Shown here piece after piece: positions 1 through 49,581 of a stretch of DNA of 64,000 nt. The stretch is from an uncultured Dehalococcoidia bacterium (GTDB lineage: Bacteria; Chloroflexota; Dehalococcoidia; Lucifugimonadales; G958296245), in contig OY282458.1 of the NCBI GenBank assembly GCA_958296245.1, forward strand, positions 496,001 through 560,000. Direction: 5' to 3'. Position 1 is the stretch's first letter; every line of letters starts with the position of its first letter. The notes below the pieces were generated by a model, which had not been told where the DNA came from, did no database searches, and saw only the letters and a program-made list of their open reading frames with translations. A program made the position numbers and the translations under genes.

Positions 1-2816
1 ACGCCGTCGCTGACCACGGTGGCGCCGCCACTGCCGCGTACTGCCGGGAACAGCGTCTGCTCGCCGATTCGCATCGAAACGTCGTAGTGCTCCCGCCCGA
101 AGCCGAACGAGCCGGCCATGCCACAGCAGCCGGAAGCTATCTCCTCAACCTCACAGCCCGGAATCGAGCCCAGGACGTCCAAGGCCGCGGCTGTGCCGAC
201 GAGCGCCTTCTGGTGGCAGTGCCCGTGAAGCAGGACACGCCCGGGCGGTTTGGTATAGATCAGCCCCTCGCCCCCCGATTCGGACTCGTGCCGTAGGAAC
301 TCCTCGAATAGCACCGCGCCCGCGGCGGCGGCGCTGACCTTCCGGTCCCGCGGCAGCAGATCGACGTACTCGTCGCGGAAGCTCAGGATGCAACTGGGCT
401 CCAGGCCTACGAGCTTGGCGCCGCCCTCCAAGAGGGGATAGACCGCATCGACGTTCGCGCGGGCGTTCCGCCTAGCGGCGTCCATCATGCCCGCCGATAG
501 CATCGGACGCCCGCAGCATTTCGTCTCCGGCAAGACGACCTCGTACCCAAGGCGCTCGAGGACCGTTGTAGCCGCCTTCCCGATCTCCGGGTGATTGTAG
601 TTCATGAAGGTGTCTACGAAGAGCACCACCTGCCCTCTGACGGCGGACGCCTGCCGCGGGCCTCTGGCCCTGAACCACTGCCTGAAGGTCTGGCTCGCGA
701 AGTGGGGCAGCTTCCGGCGCCTGTCAATGGCCGCGTACCGCTCCAGCAGGTCTTCGAATGTCCCGGACCTCAGGACCAGATTGGATACGGGGGCCATGAA
801 CGACCCAAGCCTGCTGAGGGTAGCTATGTTGCCGAATAGCCTGCTCCTAGTGGAGAACCCGTTGGCCTTGTGGTACCGGTCGAGGAACTCATACTTCAGT
901 TTGGCCACGTCCACGTTGGAAGGGCACTCGCTCTTGCAACCCTTGCACTCCAAACAGAGGTCCAACACGTCATGGAGACGCCTGCCAGTCAGGGAGCTCA
1001 ATGGCAGCGCGCCTGAAATGGCCGCGCGGAGGGCGTTGGCCCGCCCTCGGGTGGAGTGCTCCTCGTCGCGCGTAACCATGTACGACGGGCACATCGTCCC
1101 CGACGTCACCTTACGGCAGGCGCCCTGTCCGTTGCACATCTCGATCGCGCCCCTGAAACCGCCCTGCCCCGCAAATGAGAGGCCCGTATCCGGTTCCACG
1201 GCGCTGTATGAGGGGTCGATACGCAGGTTCTCGGTCATGGGCGCCGGATCGACGATCTTGCCGGGGTTCATGATCCCGTCCGGATCGAAGGCCTGCTTGG
1301 TCCGGCGAAAGGCCTCGTACAGCTTCGGCCCGAACATCTTCTCGATCCACGGGCTGCGGGCCAGCCCGTCCCCGTGTTCGCCGCTCATGGCGCCGCCGAA
1401 CTCCAGCACGAGGTCGCTGACGTCCGACGCAATGGCGGCCATGCGATCGACCCCCTCCTGGCTCTTGAGGTCGATCAGCGGGCGAATGTGTAGGCAGCCC
1501 ACACTTGCGTGACCGTAATACCCCGCCGTCGTGCCGTGCGAGCGCACTATTTCATCGAACCGCCGGACGTATTCGGGCAGTCTCTCGGGATCGACTGCGG
1601 TGTCCTCGACGAACGGGAGGGGTTTCGCACTCCCGGGAACGTTCATCATCAGACCGAGACCGGCTTTGCGCACCGCCCACACCTGCGCCTGCGCGCTCTC
1701 CTCCATCACACGCCGCGCCGCGTACCCCATCCGCGAGCGCTCCAGGCTGCGCTCCAAGGCGTCGAGCTTCGACACGACCTCGGCCTGGGAGTCTCCCGTC
1801 AGTTCCACCAGCAAGACCGCCTCGGGGTCTCCTTCCAGGAAGCCCATCTTCCGCGAGTATTCGAGGTTGGAGCGCGCCTGCCTGAGGATCATCGAGTCGA
1901 CCAGCTCCACCGACGCCGGGCCGACTTCCAGGATGGGCACGGTCGCCTCGACCGATTCCACCATCTCGTTGAAGTGGATGACCGAGAGCGCCTTGTGGTT
2001 GGGGCGCGGTACGATCTTGACCTTTACGTCGGTCACGGTTAGCAGGGTGCCCTCCGAGCCGACGACGAATCGCGCTAGGTCCAATCCGCCTGAAGGGTCG
2101 GCCGCCTCGTCGAGGTTGTACCCTGAGACTCGCCGTTGTATCTGCGGAAACCTGGCGGCGACCTCGTCCCGATTCTCCGCGCCTATCTCCGCGATGCTGC
2201 GGTAGATGCGGCCCTCCAGGGAGTCGCGGCGCATCCGTTCATCGAGTTGCTCGGCGCTGATCGGCCCCAGCGTGGCAAAGTCGCCATTGGACAGTACGGC
2301 GGTTAGCTCGGAGACGTTGTCCACCGTCTTGCCCCACACGATGGAATGAGCGCCGCAGGAGTTATTGCCGACGGCCCCCCCGACGTTGCCCCGGTTGCTG
2401 GTGCTGGGGTCGGGCGCGAACATCATGCCCGTGGGCGTGAGGAGCCGATTCAACTCGTCGAGGATGATCCCCGGCTGCACGTGGGCCCATCCCTCCTCGA
2501 CGTTGGTTTCTAGCACCCCCCGCATGTATTTGGAGAAGTCGATGACGACAGCGTGCCCGACCGTCTGCCCCGCAAGGCTGGTCCCCCCGCCGCGCGGCAA
2601 CACCGGCGCCCCGTGGCGGCCCGCCGTCTCCACGACGGCGGCCACGTCCTCAGCCGTCCTGGGCAGCACGACGCCAATCGGTTCGATCTGGTAGATGCTG
2701 GCGTCGGTGCTGTAGAGGGCGCGGGTCATCGCGTCGAAGCGCACCTCCCCGGACACCACCCGCCTGAGGTCTTCTACGAGTGACCTATCGTCGAGGGATG
2801 CTGCCGGCGCCGGCAT
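1..2816 (-). CDS. FAD-binding and Fe-S oxidoreductase (GlcD/GlcF fusion, YdiJ-like), 3' end outside window
   Basis: About 938 codons are present and the frame is still open at position 1. The FAD-binding type 4 domain is N-terminal, with PRGGGTSLAGQ at residues 74-84. The FAD-oxidase C-terminal domain follows, with VGSEGTL and GEHGDG near residue 477. Next is a di-cluster ferredoxin part, with a CxxxGxCR...MCP group near 560-575 and CLECKGCKSECP near 620. Two CCG repeats end it, with CCGRPM near 765 and CCGMAGSFG near 895. This order is that of GlcD+GlcF fusions and of E. coli YdiJ, which oxidise D-2-hydroxyacids and pass electrons to the quinone pool. The exact substrate cannot be read from sequence. 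The ATG sits inside the stop of the upstream antiporter gene (TGATG), so the two are probably translationally coupled. Confidence 0.9.
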   Translation of the reverse strand, partial: MPAPAASLDDRSLVEDLRRVVSGEVRFDAMTRALYSTDASIYQIEPIGVVLPRTAEDVAAVVETAGRHGAPVLPRGGGTSLAGQTVGHAVVIDFSKYMRGVLETNVEEGWAHVQPGIILDELNRLLTPTGMMFAPDPSTSNRGNVGGAVGNNSCGAHSIVWGKTVDNVSELTAVLSNGDFATLGPISAEQLDERMRRDSLEGRIYRSIAEIGAENRDEVAARFPQIQRRVSGYNLDEAADPSGGLDLARFVVGSEGTLLTVTDVKVKIVPRPNHKALSVIHFNEMVESVEATVPILEVGPASVELVDSMILRQARSNLEYSRKMGFLEGDPEAVLLVELTGDSQAEVVSKLDALERSLERSRMGYAARRVMEESAQAQVWAVRKAGLGLMMNVPGSAKPLPFVEDTAVDPERLPEYVRRFDEIVRSHGTTAGYYGHASVGCLHIRPLIDLKSQEGVDRMAAIASDVSDLVLEFGGAMSGEHGDGLARSPWIEKMFGPKLYEAFRRTKQAFDPDGIMNPGKIVDPAPMTENLRIDPSYSAVEPDTGLSFAGQGGFRGAIEMCNGQGACRKVTSGTMCPSYMVTRDEEHSTRGRANALRAAISGALPLSSLTGRRLHDVLDLCLECKGCKSECPSNVDVAKLKYEFLDRYHKANGFSTRSRLFGNIATLSRLGSFMAPVSNLVLRSGTFEDLLERYAAIDRRRKLPHFASQTFRQWFRARGPRQASAVRGQVVLFVDTFMNYNHPEIGKAATTVLERLGYEVVLPETKCCGRPMLSAGMMDAARRNARANVDAVYPLLEGGAKLVGLEPSCILSFRDEYVDLLPRDRKVSAAAAGAVLFEEFLRHESESGGEGLIYTKPPGRVLLHGHCHQKALVGTAAALDVLGSIPGCEVEEIASGCCGMAGSFGFGREHYDVSMRIGEQTLFPAVRGSGGATVVSDG

Positions 2817-4102
2817 CACGCCCCGTTCGCGGCGGCGGGTTTCCGGGTGCCGGGAGCGTCTCCACGGAAGGACAGAGCCAGGAGCGGCGGCGCCAACGCC
2901 GTGGTGACTATCGTCATCAGGATGGCCACGCCGTAAAGGTCCGCGGTGAGTATCCCCCTGCTTATTCCGATGCCGGCCATGATGAGGGCCACCTCTCCCC
3001 GAGGCAGCATGCCGAAGCCTATTCTCCAAGCGCCGCGTCTATTGAACCCGACCAGCAGCGCCGGCAGACCGGAGCCCCCGACCTTGCCTATGACCGCCGC
3101 AACGGTGATGACAGCCCCGAACACGAGAACGCCCCCCAAGGCGCTTACGTCTACGAGCATGCCCATAACCACGAAGAAGACTGGCACCAGGAACGCATAG
3201 ATGGCTCTCAGGGGTTTGTCTAGATTGTGGGCTAGGTCGGTGCCCGAGAGGGCTAGGCCAATGGAGAAGGCGCCGATGATCATCGCAAGCCCGAAGCTCT
3301 CGGCGAGGCCGGCCGCCAGAAGCGCAATGGCCAGCGCCAGAGCAACCGAGGCGCCGCTCACTTTGAACCGCTGGAGCAAGTCCGAAATGTGTCCGGATAG
3401 CAGTATCCCGATCCCGGTCAACGCCACCCAGAACCCCAACGTCTTGAAGATCACCCACGCTATGGAAGTAGCCTCGAATTCCCCTGTGTCTGCGAGGCCC
3501 ACTACGATCGTGAGCACCAGTATCCCAATGACGTCGTCCAGCACGGCTGCGCCCAGTGTCGTGACCCCTTCGGGTGACGCAAGGCGTCGTAGGTCTGCCA
3601 GCACCCGGACCGTGATCCCTATGGACGTGGCGGTCATGATGGCGCCGATGAACAGCGATTTGTCGCTGCCGTAGCCGGCGGCGTATCCGAACAGGACGGT
3701 CAGCACCAGGCCGAACGCGAACGGCGCCACAACCCCGCCGGCCGCGACCGCGGTTGCTTGCCTCGCGTAGCGTAGGAATTGCTTCAGATCGGTCTCGAGG
3801 CCTGCCATGAAGAGCAGTACCACCGAGCCCAGCTGCGCGATGGACCACAGCTCCCAGGAGACCGGTATGGCTGAGAAGGCTTCGCCCGCCGCGGCTTCGG
3901 GGCGGGCGAACATCGGCCCCACCCTCCAGAAATCAATCCCGCCAAGGGCGAAGGGGCCTATCAGGATGCCAACCGCAAGCTCGCCCAGAACCGCCGGCAT
4001 CTTGAAAACCCGCTCGCAGAGCTCCCCCCCCAGCTTCGCAGCGATGAGTATCACAGCGAGTTGGAAGACCAGCCTGACTACTGCTTCTTGCGTGTGCTCC
4101 AT
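2816..4102 (-). CDS. Cation:proton antiporter, CPA2 family (NapA/KefB-like)
   Basis: 428 residues, almost wholly hydrophobic, with about 12-13 membrane segments and only a short charged C-terminal tail. There is no C-terminal RCK/TrkA-N domain, unlike full KefB. The segment GAAVLDDVIGILVL carries the paired aspartates typical of electrogenic CPA2 exchangers such as NapA. The likely role is Na+ (or K+) for H+ exchange across the inner membrane. It lies between the CoA-transferase genes upstream and the FAD/Fe-S oxidoreductase downstream, on the same strand. The stop overlaps the next start by one base. Ion specificity is not determinable here. Confidence 0.88.
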   Translation of the reverse strand: MEHTQEAVVRLVFQLAVILIAAKLGGELCERVFKMPAVLGELAVGILIGPFALGGIDFWRVGPMFARPEAAAGEAFSAIPVSWELWSIAQLGSVVLLFMAGLETDLKQFLRYARQATAVAAGGVVAPFAFGLVLTVLFGYAAGYGSDKSLFIGAIMTATSIGITVRVLADLRRLASPEGVTTLGAAVLDDVIGILVLTIVVGLADTGEFEATSIAWVIFKTLGFWVALTGIGILLSGHISDLLQRFKVSGASVALALAIALLAAGLAESFGLAMIIGAFSIGLALSGTDLAHNLDKPLRAIYAFLVPVFFVVMGMLVDVSALGGVLVFGAVITVAAVIGKVGGSGLPALLVGFNRRGAWRIGFGMLPRGEVALIMAGIGISRGILTADLYGVAILMTIVTTALAPPLLALSFRGDAPGTRKPAAANGA

Positions 4103-4139
4103 AGTTTCTTTCCCAAGGGTCCTTCTGTCGGATTAGATC

Positions 4140-4916
4140 TCACGCCCTCTTCACGTATACGTTGCCGGGGTCGACCTCCTCCCGGAGGACGCGGAGCTCG
4201 GCGGGCGACGGCGTTTCCGTCGTCTCTATGGACGGCGGCTGCATGGGCTCGAAGCCGGTGTTCTCCAGGAGGTGCTCCAGCGATACGCCCGGCATCAGCT
4301 TATCCACCCTCAGCCGGCCCGCCTGCTTGTCTATGGACATCACCGTCATGTCTGTTACCACCACCACGTCCGGGTAGGGGGTCGGCAGTGCGGCCCGCTT
4401 CCTGCCGTGAGGACCGTCGACGTATCCCGGGCTGGTCACGTAGTCGCAATGGGTTGGGAACCGCCTCCGCTCATGGCGAGTTATGATCAGCACCTTCTTA
4501 GCGTGCGAGGCAACGTCGTTGGCGCCGCCGCTGCCCGGGAACCGGACCTTGGGGCGGGCGCTGTCTCCGATCAGGGTGGAGTTCACGTTGGCGAACTGGT
4601 CCACCTGCGCGCCTCCGATGAACCCGACGTCCACCAATCCGCGTTGCAGCACACCGCCTAGGGACTCCAGCAGCGAGCCCACGCGGGCGGCCCGGTACAT
4701 GACCCGCGGGTCCGAAACCGAGACCGGCGTCGGTATCACCTCGGGGGCGATCGGCCCGGTCTCCACTACGTAGCACATGTTGGGCGCGTGGCTCTTCAAC
4801 GCCATCAGCGCGGCTACCATGGGCAGGCCGGTACCCACCAGCACGACGTCGCCGTCCGAGATGTGCCGGGAGGCCTCGACGACCATTAGCTCGTCCAGGA
4901 TGAACGGCGCCGTCAA
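4140..4916 (-). CDS. CoA-transferase family I, subunit B (GctB-like)
   Basis: 258 residues. It has the NagB/RpiA/CoA-transferase-like fold signature of the beta subunit: DGDVVLVGTGLPMVAA near the N-terminus, FIGGAQVDQFANVNST in the middle and TDMTVMSIDK later. VVETGPIAPEV places a glutamate at residue 52, close to the catalytic Glu54 known for glutaconate CoA-transferase beta; this correspondence is by position only. Its start overlaps the stop of subunit A by 4 bases (ATGA), as expected for a stoichiometric heteromer. Relatives include glutaconate and 3-oxoacid CoA-transferases and the IpdAB hydrolase, so the acyl substrate is unknown. Confidence 0.88.
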   Translation of the reverse strand: MTAPFILDELMVVEASRHISDGDVVLVGTGLPMVAALMALKSHAPNMCYVVETGPIAPEVIPTPVSVSDPRVMYRAARVGSLLESLGGVLQRGLVDVGFIGGAQVDQFANVNSTLIGDSARPKVRFPGSGGANDVASHAKKVLIITRHERRRFPTHCDYVTSPGYVDGPHGRKRAALPTPYPDVVVVTDMTVMSIDKQAGRLRVDKLMPGVSLEHLLENTGFEPMQPPSIETTETPSPAELRVLREEVDPGNVYVKRA

Positions 4917-5836
4917 ATCACCGCCTCCATAGCCTTGCGCAGCTCCTCCAGCCTGGCCGGCCCGGCGGCCTCTTCCAGAAACTCGTCGAAGGTCGAGCAG
5001 CCGCGGACGTACCTGTCCAGGTATTCCTCGTACTGACTCCCGCCGGCGCGGGCTGCCCGCTGGTAGCTCAGAATGTGGGCGTCGTCGTGCTCATAGTAGC
5101 GGTGCGCCGCCGTCGGATATGCCCCCCACGGCTGCACGACCACCGCGTCCACGTACAAGTACGGAATGGTAGTCCTGTCCGGGCAGCCCTTGATGTCGTC
5201 GGGGCTCACCAGCTCCTCGCAGCTGACGACCACCGCCTTCGACGCCCTCACCATCTCCGGCTCGTGCGTAGTGAACCCGTCTATTACGACGTTGCCCATC
5301 TCGTCGGCCCTCTGCGCGTGCACGATAGACACGTCCGGGGTGCAGGCCGGCAGCAGCACGACCCGGTCCTCACGGTCCCACGGATTCGAGACCAGCGCGA
5401 ACGGAGGCACGCCGTCCCGCCCCTCCTGGCGCAGTATGTCTGTGCCGAGCATACTCTTGGACGGCATGAAGGGCAGCCCAAGAGACCCTGCAAGGAACCG
5501 CAGGGCCATGGCGAGGTGGCTGTGGTCGACGACTTCGATGCGCCCCTCCTCGACCGCGCGCCGCCAACGGAAGGTCCCGCCGTAACGCTCCAGGTTGCCT
5601 GTCCCGCATTCGGTGCTCCGCACCAACCCGGCGCCCACCAGCAAGTCCATGGTCATGGACATGCTGCACCCCACCAGACGGAGGTCCTTCTTGCCCTGCC
5701 GGACCATCTCGTGGACCAGAGCCATGCTGCATCTGCCGATGGTCTGGCCTCCGATGCCCACGGTGGCCCCGTCGTGGATGAGCCTGCTGACGGCCTCTGA
5801 GGCGGTTGTTACCTTCGATTCGAACTTGCGGGCCAT
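4913..5836 (-). CDS. CoA-transferase family I, subunit A (GctA-like)
   Basis: 307 residues from the ATG at 5836. A longer frame reaches 6076, but that extension overlaps thiD and does not look like family sequence. The protein opens with a short basic segment, then GATVGIGGQTIGRCSMALVH, the glycine-rich CoA-transferase loop. It continues with LRLVGCSMSMTMDLLVGAG and a GxxGLPFMPSKSMLGTD segment typical of GctA/IpdA-like alpha subunits. Paired with the B subunit downstream through a 4-base overlap. It should move CoA between a carboxylate and an acyl-CoA, or, if IpdAB-like, hydrolyse a cyclic acyl-CoA. Confidence 0.88.
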   Translation of the reverse strand: MARKFESKVTTASEAVSRLIHDGATVGIGGQTIGRCSMALVHEMVRQGKKDLRLVGCSMSMTMDLLVGAGLVRSTECGTGNLERYGGTFRWRRAVEEGRIEVVDHSHLAMALRFLAGSLGLPFMPSKSMLGTDILRQEGRDGVPPFALVSNPWDREDRVVLLPACTPDVSIVHAQRADEMGNVVIDGFTTHEPEMVRASKAVVVSCEELVSPDDIKGCPDRTTIPYLYVDAVVVQPWGAYPTAAHRYYEHDDAHILSYQRAARAGGSQYEEYLDRYVRGCSTFDEFLEEAAGPARLEELRKAMEAVI

Positions 5837-5874
5837 ATGTATCCCTGTGGGGGTGGGGTCTGGACAGCCAACGT

Positions 5875-5880
5875 ATTCTA
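5875..5880 (-). promoter_or_regulatory. Candidate -10 box for the CoA-transferase operon
   Basis: TAGAAT on the minus strand, about 39 bases before the subunit A start. It matches the -10 hexamer seen at the well-formed promoters elsewhere in the window, but no convincing -35 is found at 17-18 bases. Confidence 0.3.
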
Positions 5881-5913
5881 CCAGACCCCCCGTGCGGTTC
5901 TCTCTTCCCGTCT

Positions 5914-6732
5914 TCACTCCCAGTGAGCGTGGAAGTGGTTCAACGGCCCGTGGCCTCTGCCTATGGGGAACGCCTCCCGGATGGCAGCCGTCACGTATCT
6001 CTTCGCCCGAGACACTGCGTCTCTCAGGGGCATTCCACAGGCAACCCCCGCCGCGATAGCCGATGCGAAGGTGCATCCGGTGCCGTGCGTGCTGGTGGTG
6101 GGAATCCTGGGCGACGTGAACACGCGGAGTTCGCCGCCGTCGAAGAAGACGTCCGATGCCGGACCCTCCGACAGGTGCCCCCCCTTGACGACCGCGGCCC
6201 CGGCGCCCATGTCGACGATCTGCATGGCGGCGTCGCGGGCGTCTTCGACGGAGGCGACCTTCCTTCCGGTCAACGCCTCGGCCTCGGGGGCGTTGGGCGT
6301 CACGACGGCAGCGGCCGGCACCAGCAGCGTCCTCAGCGCCTCTACGGCGTCCTCACGGAGCAGCCTCCCACCCGACTTAGCCACCATCACAGGGTCCACA
6401 ACGAGGTTGCTCAGGCCATGCTCTGCAACCTTCTCAGCCACGGCCTCGATGATGGCCGACGAGGATAACATCCCCGTCTTGACCGCGTCCGCGCCGATGT
6501 CGCCAAGTACGGCGTCGATCTGAGACCGCACGGTCTGGACCGGTATCTCCACCACGTCGGCGACCTCGAGGGTGTTCTGAGCCGTGACGGCCGTTATGAC
6601 CGTCGTCCCGTACACCCCCAGCGCGGCAAAGGTCTTCATGTCCGCCTGGACCCCGGCTCCGCCCCCGGAGTCCGACCCCGCAATCGTCATGGCTTTGGGT
6701 ACGGGTCTGCCCGTCCCGGGTGAGCTGTTCAA
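5914..6732 (-). CDS. thiD: Hydroxymethylpyrimidine/phosphomethylpyrimidine kinase
   Basis: 272 residues, the usual length. It phosphorylates HMP and HMP-phosphate to HMP-PP for thiamine synthesis. The ribokinase-like signature is clear: [20 protein letters not shown] at the N-terminus, [11 protein letters not shown] in the middle, [12 protein letters not shown], and the anion-hole motif [15 protein letters not shown] at the C-terminal side. The start is TTG with GAGGT seven bases upstream. It lies downstream of the DUF4349 lipoprotein and a tiny ORF on the same strand. No other thi genes and no TPP riboswitch were seen here. Confidence 0.96.
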
Positions 6733-6744
6733 TGTCTACCTCGG

Positions 6745-6801
6745 CTACTCCTGAGCCTTCAACAGGTCGGCGCTCTTCAGGATCTCAAACCGCCCGTTCA
6801 T
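6745..6801 (-). CDS. Possible 18-residue ORF between the DUF4349 gene and thiD
   Basis: ATG with GAGGT just upstream, 18 codons and a TAG. It begins 6 bases after the DUF4349 stop and ends 12 bases before the thiD start, so it fills the gap like a coupling or leader ORF. The peptide ([18 protein letters not shown]) is not recognised. It could be chance. Confidence 0.3.
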
Positions 6802-6807
6802 GCTACC

Positions 6808-8793
6808 TCACGCCTCCGCGTCCCCCTGTCGGCTGCGCGGCGGGTTCTCTTGGGGCTCCGGCGCTCCCTCCGGGCCGGCCGGCTTCGGGCGCTTGGGCCT
6901 CGAACCCCAGCGGGTGCCTACGCGGTTCAGCACGATCACGGCGCCAAGCAAAATTGCCCAGATCGGGCTGAGGATGATAAGCCAGATGGCCGCTGTCACG
7001 AGGCTCCTGGCGACCGTCGAGAGCAACCTGACGGCGTCCTTGGCGTCTCCCTGCAGGTCGTACCCGCCAACTATCCAGCCCCTCCCCTCCACCACGGTGA
7101 CGTCTACCTGACTCGACGCCTCCACCATGCCGACCTCGCTCTCGCCCGTGATGGTGAGCGTAGCGGCGTATGGTCCTTGGTGAAGATACTCGTGATGCGC
7201 CTCGACGGCGCTGCTATCTTCGTCGAGAGCGGCCTCCTCGGGAGCCGAGCCGTCGCCGAAAACCCACCGGTACCTCATGTTAGCAACCCCAGGCGGGCGG
7301 GTGAACGTTCCGCGCAGCTTGGCCGTGGCGCCCTCTTCGACCGTAACCGGCCCGTCGGCGGAGACGATCAACACAGGCAGCTCCGTCACGGTCACGACAG
7401 CCTTGTCCGATCCCTCGACGACGCCGGCCTCGCCGATGCCCGTCATATTGATCTGAACGATGTACGGCGACTCCAAGGCGCTCCCATATGCGTGATGGGT
7501 GACCGCGGTTACCATGCGGGCGGAGTCCTCCGTCAGGATGGCGCGGTTGCCGGTGATTGGGGGGCTGCCGTCTCCAAAGTCCCACGTGTAGGTGAACTGA
7601 TCAATGTCCGCCGGCGGCTCGAAGAAGGCGCGGAACCGAACGCTGCGGCCCACGGCGGTGGTCTGGTCCTCGCCGGCGTCCACCGGCATCTGCTCAGTGT
7701 CGAGGACGGTGACCTTGATGGTGTCCTGGCCGAACAGCGGGCTCGACTCTGAAGAGCCGGATATCCTCACGTCGACGAAGTACGGTGAGTCGCGGTAGTC
7801 GTCGAATACGTGCGAGATCGAGGCGGTGACTCGGGTGCCCGGCTGGGTGGTTGCCGCGGTGAACGTGTCGGTGACCGGCCCCGAGCGGTCGCCGAAGTCC
7901 CACTCCACCAAGTAGTCGGAGCCGGCGGCGGGAGGCCGGAAGTTCGCCTTGAACCGGAGCGTCTGGCCAATGCTGACGGTCCGGTCAGGGCCCGCGTCGA
8001 CGCGGAGGTCGACACGCTCGACCTGCATGGCCACGTTTATCAGCGAGAATGCCGACGTCTCCTCCAGCAGTTTGAGCCTCCCCAGAAGAACCTCGATCTC
8101 CTCCTGCACCTCCGAAAGCGACTCCCGGATGTCGAGGGCGTCGCGGGCATCCGACGCCTGTTCGAGCAGGTTCAGCATGGCTGTCGCCGTCGCCCGCAGG
8201 TTCCGCAGCCGCGACTGAGAATCGAAGTATTCGGCGGTTACGTCCTTGCTGGTGGTGACCTCCGACTCGACCTCTACGGCAATGTCTCTGATCCGCGCGA
8301 TGGCCTCGTCCAGCCGCTCGGCCGGTACTCGCACGGCGATATTGCCGCTAAAGTCGTCCGACCTCTCCGAAGACACGGTCCACCCGCCCATGCCGTTCGC
8401 CACGGCTGCGACTTCGTCCATCGACGCCTGGATGCCGGACACCACGAGGCCCATGGCCACCGTACGCACGACGATGCGTTGTTGCCGCGCCAGCGTCGCA
8501 GTCTCGCCGTCGACGGCCTCGACTTCGAGCGCCGCCGCCTCTTTCTTCGCTGCGTCAGCGGTCGTCTCGCTCTGCGCTCCAACACCATCCGCCCCAACCG
8601 GCACCTTCCCGACCACCTCTTTCGCCACCTCCACCACGACCGTTTCTCTCTCCGGCTCTACCGCCTCCCCGCGCGGCTCCACCGCCTCATCCGTCATCGA
8701 CTCGATGGAATCTTCTCCTACTCCTGCGCACCCCACGATTACGAGCGCCGCCAGGACCCACCATGAGGCCATGACCAAATATCTGCTCACCAC
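6808..8793 (-). CDS. DUF4349 lipoprotein with three PKD-like domains and a C-terminal membrane anchor
   Basis: 661 residues. A signal peptide ends in the lipobox VIVGC near residue 22, and an acidic, Val/Glu-rich linker follows. Residues about 105-260 match DUF4349, with RIVVRTVAMGLVVSG, VPAERLDEAIARI and a predicted coiled coil around LSEVQEEIEVLLGRLK. Three PKD-like beta-sandwich repeats follow, each with WDFGDGS-type motifs (WDFGDRSGP, WDFGDGSPP, WVFGDGSAP). The last 70 residues hold one hydrophobic helix and a basic, proline-rich tail. The protein is probably a cell-surface sensor or adhesive protein; its function is unknown. Start is one of two adjacent GTG codons after AAGGGGG. Confidence 0.85.
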   Translation of the reverse strand: MVSRYLVMASWWVLAALVIVGCAGVGEDSIESMTDEAVEPRGEAVEPERETVVVEVAKEVVGKVPVGADGVGAQSETTADAAKKEAAALEVEAVDGETATLARQQRIVVRTVAMGLVVSGIQASMDEVAAVANGMGGWTVSSERSDDFSGNIAVRVPAERLDEAIARIRDIAVEVESEVTTSKDVTAEYFDSQSRLRNLRATATAMLNLLEQASDARDALDIRESLSEVQEEIEVLLGRLKLLEETSAFSLINVAMQVERVDLRVDAGPDRTVSIGQTLRFKANFRPPAAGSDYLVEWDFGDRSGPVTDTFTAATTQPGTRVTASISHVFDDYRDSPYFVDVRISGSSESSPLFGQDTIKVTVLDTEQMPVDAGEDQTTAVGRSVRFRAFFEPPADIDQFTYTWDFGDGSPPITGNRAILTEDSARMVTAVTHHAYGSALESPYIVQINMTGIGEAGVVEGSDKAVVTVTELPVLIVSADGPVTVEEGATAKLRGTFTRPPGVANMRYRWVFGDGSAPEEAALDEDSSAVEAHHEYLHQGPYAATLTITGESEVGMVEASSQVDVTVVEGRGWIVGGYDLQGDAKDAVRLLSTVARSLVTAAIWLIILSPIWAILLGAVIVLNRVGTRWGSRPKRPKPAGPEGAPEPQENPPRSRQGDAEA

Positions 8794-8833
8794 AACCCCC
8801 TTCCCGAGCGCGCCGGCAGCGGCAGCCGTGCGC

Positions 8834-9424
8834 CTACGCTACGCTTCCGGAGCCGGACTGCTTCTTGAGCCTCGATAGGTACTGCTTGCGAAACTTCGCC
8901 ACCTTGGGCGCAACGACGACCCTGCAATAGGGCTGACCGGGGTTTCGTCTGAAGTAGTCTTGGTGGTACGTCTCCGCCGGGTAGAACTCCGTAAGCGGGA
9001 CGACCTCCGTCACGACGCGCCGGCCCCAGGGGCCTGTCTCGTCCATCTCCCGGATCGCCTGCTGCGCGGCTGCCCTCTGCCCCTCATCGTGGTAGAAGAC
9101 GGCGGAGCGGTACTGCGTCCCCACGTCGTTCCCCTGCCGGTTCAGCGTAGTGGGGTCGTGGATCGTGAAGAAGACCGCCAGAATGTCCTCGTAGCTCACG
9201 ACCTCGGGGTCGAAGGTGATCCGGACAACCTCCGCGTGCCCCGTAGATCCCGTGCAGACCTGCTCGTAGGACGGGTTGCTCACCGTCCCGCCCGCGTAGC
9301 CTGAAACGACCTTCCGGACGCCCGCGAGCTCGTCATACACAGCTTCGAGGCACCAGAAGCAGCCTCCGGCCAGTGTCGCGTCGGATATGCTGCCGGGGCG
9401 TATCTTGTCGTAGTCGTTGCTCAC
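8834..9424 (-). CDS. msrA: Peptide-methionine (S)-S-oxide reductase
   Basis: 196 residues. The catalytic motif GCFWC is at residues about 22-26, followed by GVRKVVSGYAGG, the GHAEVV segment and YHQDYF, all characteristic of MsrA. It repairs oxidised methionine (S-sulfoxide) using thioredoxin. The start is GTG preceded by a strong AGGAGGTGA site. No MsrB domain is fused or adjacent. It lies between the PhyH-like gene and the DUF4349 lipoprotein on the same strand. Confidence 0.97.
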   Translation of the reverse strand: MSNDYDKIRPGSISDATLAGGCFWCLEAVYDELAGVRKVVSGYAGGTVSNPSYEQVCTGSTGHAEVVRITFDPEVVSYEDILAVFFTIHDPTTLNRQGNDVGTQYRSAVFYHDEGQRAAAQQAIREMDETGPWGRRVVTEVVPLTEFYPAETYHQDYFRRNPGQPYCRVVVAPKVAKFRKQYLSRLKKQSGSGSVA

Positions 9425-46246: not shown

Positions 46247-47005
46247 ATGTCAGGCCATTCCAAATGGTCGACCATCAAGCACGGCAAGGCGGTCACCGAC
46301 GCCCGGCGCGGCCAGTTGTTCACCAAGCTGACCCGGGAGATCATCGTTGCCGCAAAGCAGGGCGGCCCCGACGTCGAGGCGAACTTCCGCCTTCGCATGG
46401 CCGTCCAGCGCGCTAGGGAAAGCAATATGCCGAATCACACCATAGACCGGGCCATCAAGCGCGGGTCCGGCTCCGGGCCGGGCCAGGACCAGATGGTAGA
46501 GGCCACGTACGAGGGCTACGGGCCGGGCGGCACTGCGATCCTGCTCCAGGCCCTGACCGACAACCGCAACCGCACCGTGTCCGACATCCGCTCGACACTG
46601 ACCAAAGGCGGCGGGAGCATGTCCGAGGCCGGCGCGGTTGCCTGGCAGTTCGAGCAGAAGGGGGTAGTCGTTGCTGAGGCGGCGAGCGGCGATGCCGAAG
46701 ACGTGGCCCTAGCGGCGATAGACGCGGGCGCAGACGACTTCGAGACCGACGACTTGACGCTGCACGCCTACACCACGCCCGATCTGCTCGACAGCATCCG
46801 CAAGACCCTCGAGGAGGCCGGCGCGTCGATAAAGTCATCCCAGCTCTCCATGATAGCCAAGAGCACGGTGCCGCTGGACGACAAGACTGCGAAACAAGCC
46901 CTCAAGCTGCTCGATAGCCTCGAAGAGCTGGACGACGTGCAGAGGGTATTCTCCAACGCCGACTTCCCTGACGACGCCCTGGAAGAGTACCAGTCCAAGG
47001 GCTAG
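46247..47005 (+). CDS. yebC: YebC/PmpR family protein (TACO1-like)
   Basis: 252 residues from the ATG at 46247, after GGAGGG. MSGHSKWSTIKHGKAVTDAR is the invariant opening; YEGYGPGGTAILLQALTDNRNRT and GSMSEAGAVAWQFEQKG follow. Members act as regulators or ease ribosome stalling at polyproline. In many bacteria the next gene is ruvC; here two accessory genes come in between. Confidence 0.96.
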   Translation: MSGHSKWSTIKHGKAVTDARRGQLFTKLTREIIVAAKQGGPDVEANFRLRMAVQRARESNMPNHTIDRAIKRGSGSGPGQDQMVEATYEGYGPGGTAILLQALTDNRNRTVSDIRSTLTKGGGSMSEAGAVAWQFEQKGVVVAEAASGDAEDVALAAIDAGADDFETDDLTLHAYTTPDLLDSIRKTLEEAGASIKSSQLSMIAKSTVPLDDKTAKQALKLLDSLEELDDVQRVFSNADFPDDALEEYQSKG

Positions 47006-47100
47006 GCTCGGGGCGTGATCGCCGCCACGCTGCTCTTCCTGCTGGTCGGTACGAGCGGTACTGCCGGAATGGGTCGAATCCGTCGACAAGGAGGCCTGAG

Positions 47101-47295
47101 ATGTCAGGACGACAAGAGAATTTAAGAATCTCCCGTGGCGCCCTGCAAGAGGTGAAGCGGGCCTTGGAGAAGTACGAGGAAGCAGTCAATAATTCCCTGA
47201 TGACTGTCGAAAGCAAGAAGACGTACAAGGGACACTCGAATAATTTTGTTCGCTGGCTGGAGCGTGATTTCGAGCCAGGTGGAAACCTGCTCTAG
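47101..47295 (+). CDS. Small protein resembling an isolated recombinase core-binding (SAM-like) domain
   Basis: 64 residues with a strong AAGGAGG site. The sequence ALEKYEEAVNNSLMTVESKK then TYKGHSNNFVRWLERDFEPGG resembles the four-helix N-terminal DNA-binding domain of tyrosine recombinases, but no catalytic domain follows. It may bind DNA or act as accessory to the nuclease 80 bases downstream. The local base composition is lower in GC than the neighbours. Family assignment is by eye and tentative. Confidence 0.6.
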   Translation: MSGRQENLRISRGALQEVKRALEKYEEAVNNSLMTVESKKTYKGHSNNFVRWLERDFEPGGNLL

Positions 47296-47375
47296 TCTAG
47301 GCGCACAAGCCTTCTCTAAATGCGCCTAGCCGTAAGGTCCAAGCACCAAGTTCTCGCGGAGGCTGAGGGGAACAC

Positions 47376-49040
47376 ATGCCTGCGAAGATAACGGCAACCG
47401 AGCAAAGCTTGATTCAAGTGTTTAGTGATGATTATTTCTTTAAGATCCCCCAATACCAACGTCCCTACGCGTGGACTACTGAACATGTCGAGGAGTTGCT
47501 GGGCGATCTAATAGACGCAATGAGGCGAGACAGCGATGCGCCATATTTCTTGGGAAGCATCGTCCTGATCAAGAGCGACGACGATGCAAAAAGTGAAGTC
47601 GTCGATGGCCAGCAGCGTCTGACGACACTCACCATGTTGCTTTGTGTACTGCGCGACATCTCTAGCAACGACGAGATCGACGAGCTTATCCGTCAAGCTG
47701 GACGTGAGATTAAGGGCACTAAGGATAGGTTCCGTCTCAGGGCAAGACAACGCGACCAGAGCTTCTTCGAGGAGAATATCCAGAGGAAGAACAGCCTGAA
47801 ATGTTTCCTTCGACGCGACCCTGTGGAATTCTCAGACAGCCAAAAGCATATGTTTAAGAACATGAGATATCTGAGACAAGAACTCTCCGAACTCGATGAT
47901 GGAGAGAGACACAATCTCGCCATATATGTCGCACAGAAATGCTTTCTGGTGGTGGTTTCGGCATCTGACGTAGATTCGGCACACCGAATATTCTCGGTAA
48001 TGAACGATAGAGGCCTTGATTTATCTCCTACTGACGTGCTGAAGGCAGATGTCCTAGGCGCTATCTCGGATTCTAAATCCCAGGATGAGTACGCCGTCAA
48101 ATGGGAGGGCGTCGAGGAGGAGATTAGACGAGATAATTTTAAAGACCTCTTTGCACACATACGGATGATATACCGAAAAGAAAAATTGCGTCGTACGTTG
48201 GAAAAGGAATTCCAGACCCACGTTCTGGGTAACTTGAGCTCCGAGAAGGCCATTGAATTCGTAGATGACGTACTTCAACCCTATGCTGATGCTTACAGAA
48301 TAGTATCGAAAGCGGTGTATCAAAGCACTGAGGACTCCGAGAAAGTCAACGCCCTCTTGCGTCACCTGAAGAGGCTCGACAACTTTGATTGGATACCTCC
48401 TGCAATAGCCTATTTTCACCTGAGGAAGGGACAAACTGATCTACTCTTGAAATTCACTCGTGATCTAGAACGGCTCGCCTATGGGTTGTTCATTCGACGC
48501 GCAAACATCAACGAACGCATCCGTCGGTATGCACAGGTGATCCGCGCCATCCAGAATGGGGACGAACTATTTGAAGACGGCAACCCTCTCCAGCTTTCAC
48601 ACACCGAAAGGACGGAAATCTTGGAGAAACTAGATGGAGACATTTATAACCAATACTACAACCTTGCCGCCCTGTTGCAACGGTTGGACAGCGTTGTAGC
48701 CGAAGAGGGGGCCACTTATCAGCATTCGATAGTCAGCATCGAGCACGTCTTGCCGCAGAGTCCTCCGGACTACTCTCAGTGGATGTGCTGGTTCCCGGAT
48801 GAAGAAGAGCGTAAGCAGTGGACACACCGGCTCGCAAATCTCGTCTTGCTGTCGCGCCGGAAGAATAGTCGGGCGTCAAACTTCGAGTTCGAACGGAAGA
48901 AGAACGAATACTTCCAAAATGGGACAACCACCTTCGCGCTGACTACTCAGGTCGTAGGTCAGTCTAAATGGACGCCGAAAATCCTTGAGTGTCGCCAGCA
49001 AGAGTTGATTGGTGCACTCAAGAAAGAATGGCGGCTATAG
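47376..49040 (+). CDS. DUF262-DUF1524 protein (GmrSD/SspE-type nuclease)
   Basis: 554 residues after a GAGGGG site. The N-terminal DUF262 (ParB-like NTPase) part has FKIPQYQRPYAW (residues 23-33), YFLGSIVL and VVDGQQRLTTLTML (DGQQR at 77-81). The C-terminal DUF1524 HNH-type part has SIEHVLPQ (His457) and LANLVLLSRRKN then NFEFERKKNEYF with the conserved Asn and Lys. Known relatives cut modified phage DNA (GmrSD, BrxU) or nick phage DNA in phosphorothioate-dependent defence (SspE). GC content is visibly lower than the flanks, and the pair interrupts yebC-ruvC. Probably horizontally acquired defence. Confidence 0.9.
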   Translation: MPAKITATEQSLIQVFSDDYFFKIPQYQRPYAWTTEHVEELLGDLIDAMRRDSDAPYFLGSIVLIKSDDDAKSEVVDGQQRLTTLTMLLCVLRDISSNDEIDELIRQAGREIKGTKDRFRLRARQRDQSFFEENIQRKNSLKCFLRRDPVEFSDSQKHMFKNMRYLRQELSELDDGERHNLAIYVAQKCFLVVVSASDVDSAHRIFSVMNDRGLDLSPTDVLKADVLGAISDSKSQDEYAVKWEGVEEEIRRDNFKDLFAHIRMIYRKEKLRRTLEKEFQTHVLGNLSSEKAIEFVDDVLQPYADAYRIVSKAVYQSTEDSEKVNALLRHLKRLDNFDWIPPAIAYFHLRKGQTDLLLKFTRDLERLAYGLFIRRANINERIRRYAQVIRAIQNGDELFEDGNPLQLSHTERTEILEKLDGDIYNQYYNLAALLQRLDSVVAEEGATYQHSIVSIEHVLPQSPPDYSQWMCWFPDEEERKQWTHRLANLVLLSRRKNSRASNFEFERKKNEYFQNGTTTFALTTQVVGQSKWTPKILECRQQELIGALKKEWRL

Positions 49041-49089
49041 ATAGCGGGGACCGCTGTCCCTCCCAAGGTGGATACTCCCGGAGCAGTCG

Positions 49090-49581
49090 GTGCGCGTCCT
49101 TGGCGTTGATCCCGGAACCTACAGGATGGGCGTGGGTGTAGTCGACTCAGAGAGGGGCGCGCTCACGGCGGCCCACTACGACGTGCTAGCGCCGCCGCGT
49201 CGAGAACCCCTCCCCAACCGGCTTCACTACCTGTACGCAGCCCTATGCGACACGATACGGGAGTGGGCGCCCGTGGAGGTCTCCATCGAGCAGCCTTTCG
49301 CGGCTCGCAACGTGCGGTCCGCCATCTCCATCGGTCACGCCGAGGCTATGGCCATGGCGGCTGCCGCCAAGCACGGCTTGCCGGTGTACACCTACGCCCC
49401 GCGGCAGGTCAAGCAGGCTGTCACGGACCACGGCGGCAGCTCCAAGGAGCAGGTGCAAGGCATGGTGGCGCTCCTGCTCGGACTACACGGCTCCCTCGAG
49501 TCGAGCGACGCCGCCGACGCGCTGGCCGTTGCTATCTGCCACATCAACGCGACCGAAGCCAACTCGGCGATGACCCTTTGA
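49090..49581 (+). CDS. ruvC: Holliday junction endonuclease RuvC
   Basis: 163 residues. The RNase H-like fold has catalytic acids in VLGVDPGTYRMG (Asp), VSIEQPF (Glu) and SSDAADALAVA (two Asp). It resolves Holliday junctions bound by RuvAB. The start is GTG with GGAG upstream. Its stop overlaps the ruvA TTG start (TTGA). Confidence 0.96.
   Translation: MRVLGVDPGTYRMGVGVVDSERGALTAAHYDVLAPPRREPLPNRLHYLYAALCDTIREWAPVEVSIEQPFAARNVRSAISIGHAEAMAMAAAAKHGLPVYTYAPRQVKQAVTDHGGSSKEQVQGMVALLLGLHGSLESSDAADALAVAICHINATEANSAMTL

Follow-up and report, generated by a model that had tools for sequence, protein, structure and literature searches.

A horizontally acquired segment between yebC and ruvC of a Dehalococcoidia bacterium carries a GmrSD-type nuclease gene and a small gene that probably acts apart from it

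Introduction

Enzymes that join a DUF262 domain to a DUF1524 domain, such as GmrSD, BrxU and SspE, act against phage DNA. The motifs of GmrSD were defined by Machnicka et al., and GmrSD enzymes are mostly single-chain proteins that have been moved horizontally and form part of defence islands (PMC4619093). BrxU, a relative of solved structure, is sufficient alone for phage protection, and it hydrolyzes nucleotides while cleaving DNA that carries 5mC, 5hmC or glucosylation (PMC8565348). Here we describe a gene of this type and its small upstream neighbour in a window of 64,000 nucleotides (the whole stretch of DNA that was analyzed) from contig OY282458.1 of an uncultured Dehalococcoidia bacterium. 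An earlier note on this DNA had proposed that the two genes form a compact system in which the small protein is the specificity or control partner of the nuclease.

Results

A low-GC segment separates yebC from ruvC

The ORFs of 64 and 554 residues that had been reported between yebC and ruvC were both confirmed (Table 1), and these two genes, yebC, ruvC and ruvA are all encoded on the plus strand, with the identity of ruvA, like those of yebC and ruvC, backed by NCBIfam. The base composition agrees with the earlier proposal of an AT-richer insertion that splits yebC from ruvC: the GC content is 50% for the small gene and 49% for the nuclease gene versus 64% for the window, whereas yebC, ruvC and the outer spacers are at 65-67%. 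At third codon positions the respective values are 62% and 58% for the two inserted genes, and 82-86% for yebC and ruvC. Positions 47,101-49,040 are the sole low-GC stretch of the window, no 1665-nt stretch equally low in GC being present elsewhere in it. The earlier note had also pointed to the yebC-ruvC gap in relatives as a test, and in all eight comparable relatives, which are of the same order and all from other families (none of the same family or genus), the gap was gene-free, lacking both genes, and only 12-201 nt long. Given the low GC, the host-like spacers at its ends and the empty gap in the eight relatives, the pair arrived as an insert; that is, a foreign, horizontally acquired AT-rich segment of ~1.9 kb with two genes lies at the yebC-ruvC junction.

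Table 1. Features of the yebC-ruvC region, with positions in the window
Feature	Position	Strand	Basis or remark
yebC, left flank of insert	46247..47005	+	NCBIfam NF001030, E 4e-95; GC 65%
High-GC spacer (66%), yebC to insert	47006..47100	+	GGAGG ribosome-binding site immediately 5' of 47101
Gene for 64-aa standalone two-helix protein	47101..47295	+	Helices 12-30, 36-53; motif TY..HS..FVRWL..DFEPG
Inverted repeat with 9-bp perfect arms, CTAGGCGCA / TGCGCCTAG	47297..47329	.	Immediately 3' of small gene
Gene for 554-aa single-chain GmrSD-type (DUF262-DUF1524) restriction nuclease, probably intact	47376..49040	+	Domains, motifs
High-GC spacer (65%), insert to ruvC	49041..49089	+	GC
ruvC, right flank of insert, followed by ruvA	49090..49581	+	NCBIfam NF000711, TIGR00228

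A search for a target-site duplication at the ends of the insert found shared 6-mers only and no longer flanking direct repeat. The two genes share one strand and a common low GC, with 80 nt between them, and the inverted repeat in that spacer is possibly a weak terminator or attenuator; the predicted RNA fold of the spacer was no better than those of shuffled sequences. A promoter scan of positions 46,900-49,300 returned two weak sites versus 1.3 expected, neither of which is in the spacer between yebC and the small gene, and no riboswitch or known RNA was found.

The 554-residue protein is a GmrSD-type nuclease

The earlier identification of the larger protein as a DUF262-DUF1524 nuclease of the anti-phage type, with DGQQR and HNH motifs, was upheld by the matches to GmrSD_N (PF03235, E 4e-40) and GmrSD_C (PF07510, E 9e-25), both in one chain. 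Across 21 homologues, the DGQQR motif (residues 77-81), EHVLP (456-460, with E456 and H457 of the HNH motif), N488, N497 and N502 show at least 95% conservation, and in BrxU a substitution of any of the equivalent Q, R, D and H residues abolishes function (PMC8565348). Judged by these sequence features, the protein is probably an intact single-chain GmrSD-type enzyme. Among the candidate defence proteins of PADLOC, Orf5 (PDLC02686), the profile of the nuclease's own clade, matches it end to end (E 9e-172), and the HEC-06 profiles reach 1e-62 at best. The host genome has three further GmrSD_N genes beside that of the insert.

Two described types invite comparison. Single-chain GmrSD enzymes of Type IV, such as Eco94GmrSD and BrxU, likewise have DUF262 and DUF1524 in one chain with the DGQQR and E/D-H-N-N motifs, and are likewise often solitary and horizontally moved. 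In contrast to that type, the nuclease described here is encoded in a housekeeping operon and not beside BREX: no BREX island surrounds it, its neighbors being yebC, the small gene, ruvC and ruvA. SspE, a phosphorothioate-sensing DUF262-DUF1524 nuclease, has the same domain order but is about 770 aa long versus 554 aa, and its profile matches only weakly (2.5e-22). The earlier remark that no dnd or ssp modification genes are adjacent extends to the whole genome (one contig, 98% complete), in which no DndC/SspD-type gene was found with TIGR03183 at E ≤ 0.001. Because of the absence of such a gene, an SspE-like system dependent on phosphorothioate is unlikely. By analogy with BrxU, the nuclease most likely needs no partner and has modified phage DNA as its substrate.

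Homologues of the nuclease were compared at 26 loci (22-58% identity) from bacteria, an archaeon and plasmids. These included 14 fetched Chloroflexota loci at 40-58% identity and plasmid homologues at 43-45% from Methylorubrum, Rhodococcus, Klebsiella and an archaeon; within the order, GmrSD genes that fall outside the nuclease's clade were 22-26% identical to it. One relative of the same order (L099, G075:C1:138000-149000) has a 47%-identical nuclease at 4408-6089 of the locus, where it interrupts the nuo operon at the nuoK-nuoL junction; upstream of it is an unrelated 96-aa ORF (4093-4383). Another (L102, G096:C5:15000-23000) has a GmrSD nuclease of ~25% identity (3464-5161) alone between proB and proA. 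The three junctions (yebC-ruvC, nuoK-nuoL and proB-proA) suggest that solo GmrSD genes are recurrently inserted into housekeeping operons.

Some homologues have other neighbors. At L100 the nuclease gene is preceded by a 62-aa ORF of HicB-like appearance, as judged by its sequence. On a Klebsiella plasmid (L198, NZ_CP130916.1) a 43%-identical homologue lies between genes for a WYL regulator and a class I DNA methyltransferase, and the three possibly form a unit. A homologue of the nuclease is carried by many Klebsiella and Enterobacter plasmids.

The small gene belongs to a widespread family

A profile was built from 27 members of the small-protein family, which are standalone proteins of ~60 aa with the motif TY..HA..FVRWL..DF.PG, in which Y25, Y42, F49, V50, R51, W52, L53, D56, F57, P59 and G60 are invariant or nearly so. 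Members have their own ATG or GTG start, often preceded by a Shine-Dalgarno-like site, and stop a few residues past DF.PG. For three pairs of small genes dN/dS was 0.06, 0.15 and 0.30. The 64-aa ORF is a genuine gene, and its family is under purifying selection.

The family was found in 17 of 250 genomes of the order, in other Chloroflexota and in phage contigs. Scanning 84,980 species with a DNA pattern gave 20 hits, one of which (L064) was a chance frame, and placed members in Alphaproteobacteria, a Clostridiales bacterium, Phycisphaerae and Thermoflexus. In all, the family spans at least four phyla and many unrelated gene contexts; none of the plasmid and phage records searched matched within the E-value limits that were set, though viral contigs hold members. 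The small ORFs are often AT-richer than the loci around them, which fits horizontal spread. No model of Pfam, NCBIfam, PHROGs or PADLOC claims the family, which is undescribed in these four libraries and is the more novel part of the locus.

The hairpin that these genes encode is not always single. In a Phycisphaerales contig (L076, QZJT01000063.1), the C-terminus of a Ser/Thr kinase (2258-4378) consists of two tandem copies, and a third follows the kinase gene as a separate small ORF (4435-4599). Genome G492 has two copies (L128 and L129), 88% identical, of a 641-bp segment that holds the small gene and, after it, a 76-aa ORF; each copy has a gene for what looks by sequence like an ISXO2-like transposase ~3.5 kb downstream. 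Two copies in genome G089 (L024 and L027) gave weak PADLOC matches (CARF7, 1.4e-6; RT, 3.3e-5) which were confined to these two and are probably due to chance. A mobile-element unit around the small gene was considered and rejected, as DNA similarity between loci ends at the coding region, except between close orthologues and in two cases of recent duplication within a genome, and there are no constant inverted repeats.

The small protein resembles half of an integrase domain

In the AlphaFold2 model (pLDDT 91) the small protein is a hairpin of the two helices listed in Table 1. Pfam Phage_int_SAM_4, a model of the core-binding (SAM-like) domain of tyrosine recombinases, weakly matched seven of the 27 family members (best E 0.0056) over about positions 1-37 of its 85 positions. 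Profile-profile comparison with N-terminal integrase sequences of the same genomes gave a score of 34.0, versus at most 16.2 for 60 column-shuffled controls, and the 41 aligned columns matched helices A and B in register. The earlier suggestion that the small protein resembles the DNA-binding domain of a recombinase therefore stands for the resemblance itself but not for the whole domain: by these sequence comparisons it is homologous to the first two helices alone. The remaining helices and the R-H-R-Y catalytic domain are missing from the protein, which stops at residue 64 and has instead a specific DF.PG end that is absent from full-length integrases of the same genomes. Foldseek returned no significant PDB match for the hairpin or for the natural tandem copy, so the fold gives no function. 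The model of the tandem copy (pTM 0.71) is compatible with two hairpins packed together.

The small gene has no fixed partner

Co-occurrence spoke against the proposed two-gene system. A small-family gene was near none of the 26 nuclease homologues, including the 14 from Chloroflexota, and conversely, 24 of the 27 small-gene copies (22 genomes) did not adjoin a DUF262 gene. In the other two of the three that did, the neighbor is not a close relative of the 554-aa nuclease. Among the 46 GmrSD_N genes in the genomes with small genes, 42 lacked a small gene beside them. A fixed partnership was rejected on these counts, and the association that the earlier note had expected to recur elsewhere did not do so with relatives of this nuclease. 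However, a GmrSD gene lay within 700 nt of a small gene three times versus 0.06 expected (27 copies, 46 GmrSD_N genes, 22 genomes), or twice versus 0.05 expected with the window left out (P about 0.001); a matched background was computed for GmrSD neighbors alone among the defence genes.

In the wider survey of about 33 independent loci, several small genes were beside defence genes. One adjoins two GmrSD genes and a gene for a protein with a PD-ExK-like motif, as judged by sequence (L025), one a DNA methylase and endonuclease VII (L026), and one a helicase/RNase H-like protein and WYL (L035). At L124 (G482:C419), which is a BREX-type defence island, the small gene is flanked by BrxL, an AAA_12 helicase and a DUF262 gene that is interrupted downstream of its N-terminal region; the small gene is divergent in orientation, and orientation varies across loci. 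At L125 (G493:C94:47000-55967) a CRISPR array (6527-8968) of 61-nt period, with the repeat GGTCTATCCCCGCGTGTGCGGGGGAACC and an internal 244-nt duplication, starts 72 nt past the stop codon of the small gene. Weaker cases involve HNH or DUF3800 genes (L033, L028 and L079), other copies are among plain housekeeping genes, for example after what appear by sequence to be cysK (L081) and dnaN (L071), and some loci hold transposase remnants. The small gene is thus tied statistically to restriction genes and defence regions generally, with no fixed partnership; a loose functional link of the family to restriction is compatible with these data.

Discussion

On the grounds of the insert, the compositions, the domain content, the intact motifs, the purifying selection on the small family and the lack of constant co-occurrence, we consider it probable that the foreign insert combines a GmrSD nuclease sufficient by itself with a small passenger gene that is independent of it in function. 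A segment of ~1.9 kb would have entered the yebC-ruvC junction, and the nuclease would probably be read from the yebC/ruv transcript by read-through. As a Type IV-like single-chain restriction enzyme, it would bind and hydrolyze NTP through the DGQQR motif of its DUF262 domain, and its DUF1524 HNH domain would cut incoming DNA with modified bases, the presumed target, so that the host would have no need of a matching modification enzyme. This solo, modification-dependent activity is, by analogy, the straightforward reading of the nuclease. The small two-helix protein looks like an independent member of a gene pool shared by defence islands and phages. It probably packs against a partner or itself, because its conserved hydrophobic residues, which are buried in the full domain, lack the other helices; its mode of action would follow from such contacts.

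Certain features of the locus argue against two unrelated genes, namely the shared low GC, the short spacing, the common strand and the single insert, together with the above-chance adjacency of small genes to GmrSD genes and the GmrSD, PD-ExK-like or BREX genes at L025 and L124. They are what would be expected of a two-gene restriction module in which the small protein controls or specifies the nuclease, travels with GmrSD-type enzymes and swaps among their subfamilies. The copies beside a methylase and endonuclease VII and beside BrxL and a DUF262 fragment fit such a module too. We nevertheless regard such a module as unlikely, since no homologue of the nuclease has the small gene, most GmrSD_N genes and most small genes lack the other, and the orientation is not constant.

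The likeness to integrases raises further possibilities. Conceivably, although we hold it only tentatively, the small gene founds an undescribed standalone family of half core-binding domains that has moved between phyla and phages, whose members would be shared accessory factors of restriction and defence loci, or inhibitors of invading integrases, pairing via the exposed face of the hairpin. The narrower proposal of an anti-recombinase, in which half a domain would trap the integrases of incoming elements in dead-end pairs and so prevent these elements from integrating, draws on the in-register homology with helices A and B, a hydrophobic face conserved despite the absence of the rest of the domain, and the presence of the family in defence-rich loci and phage contigs; but an integrase is not a constant neighbor and no solved structure was matched significantly, and we think it quite improbable. 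That the small ORF is merely a decayed, functionless integrase fragment, as its span over the first half of a single domain and the transposase remnants at some loci might imply, is highly improbable: it is largely refuted by a length and motif that are conserved across phyla, at least four of which share the same arrangement of start and stop, and the low dN/dS and the family's own DF.PG end also speak against it.

The preferred reading, of a self-sufficient nuclease beside an independent passenger, makes the nuclease one more solo GmrSD enzyme of a known kind. Solo GmrSD genes slotted into operon junctions would escape searches for defence islands. The small family is the more useful lead, with no model in four libraries and several copies near restriction, BREX or CRISPR genes; if functional at defence loci, it would be a general defence accessory hidden by gene-size cut-offs.
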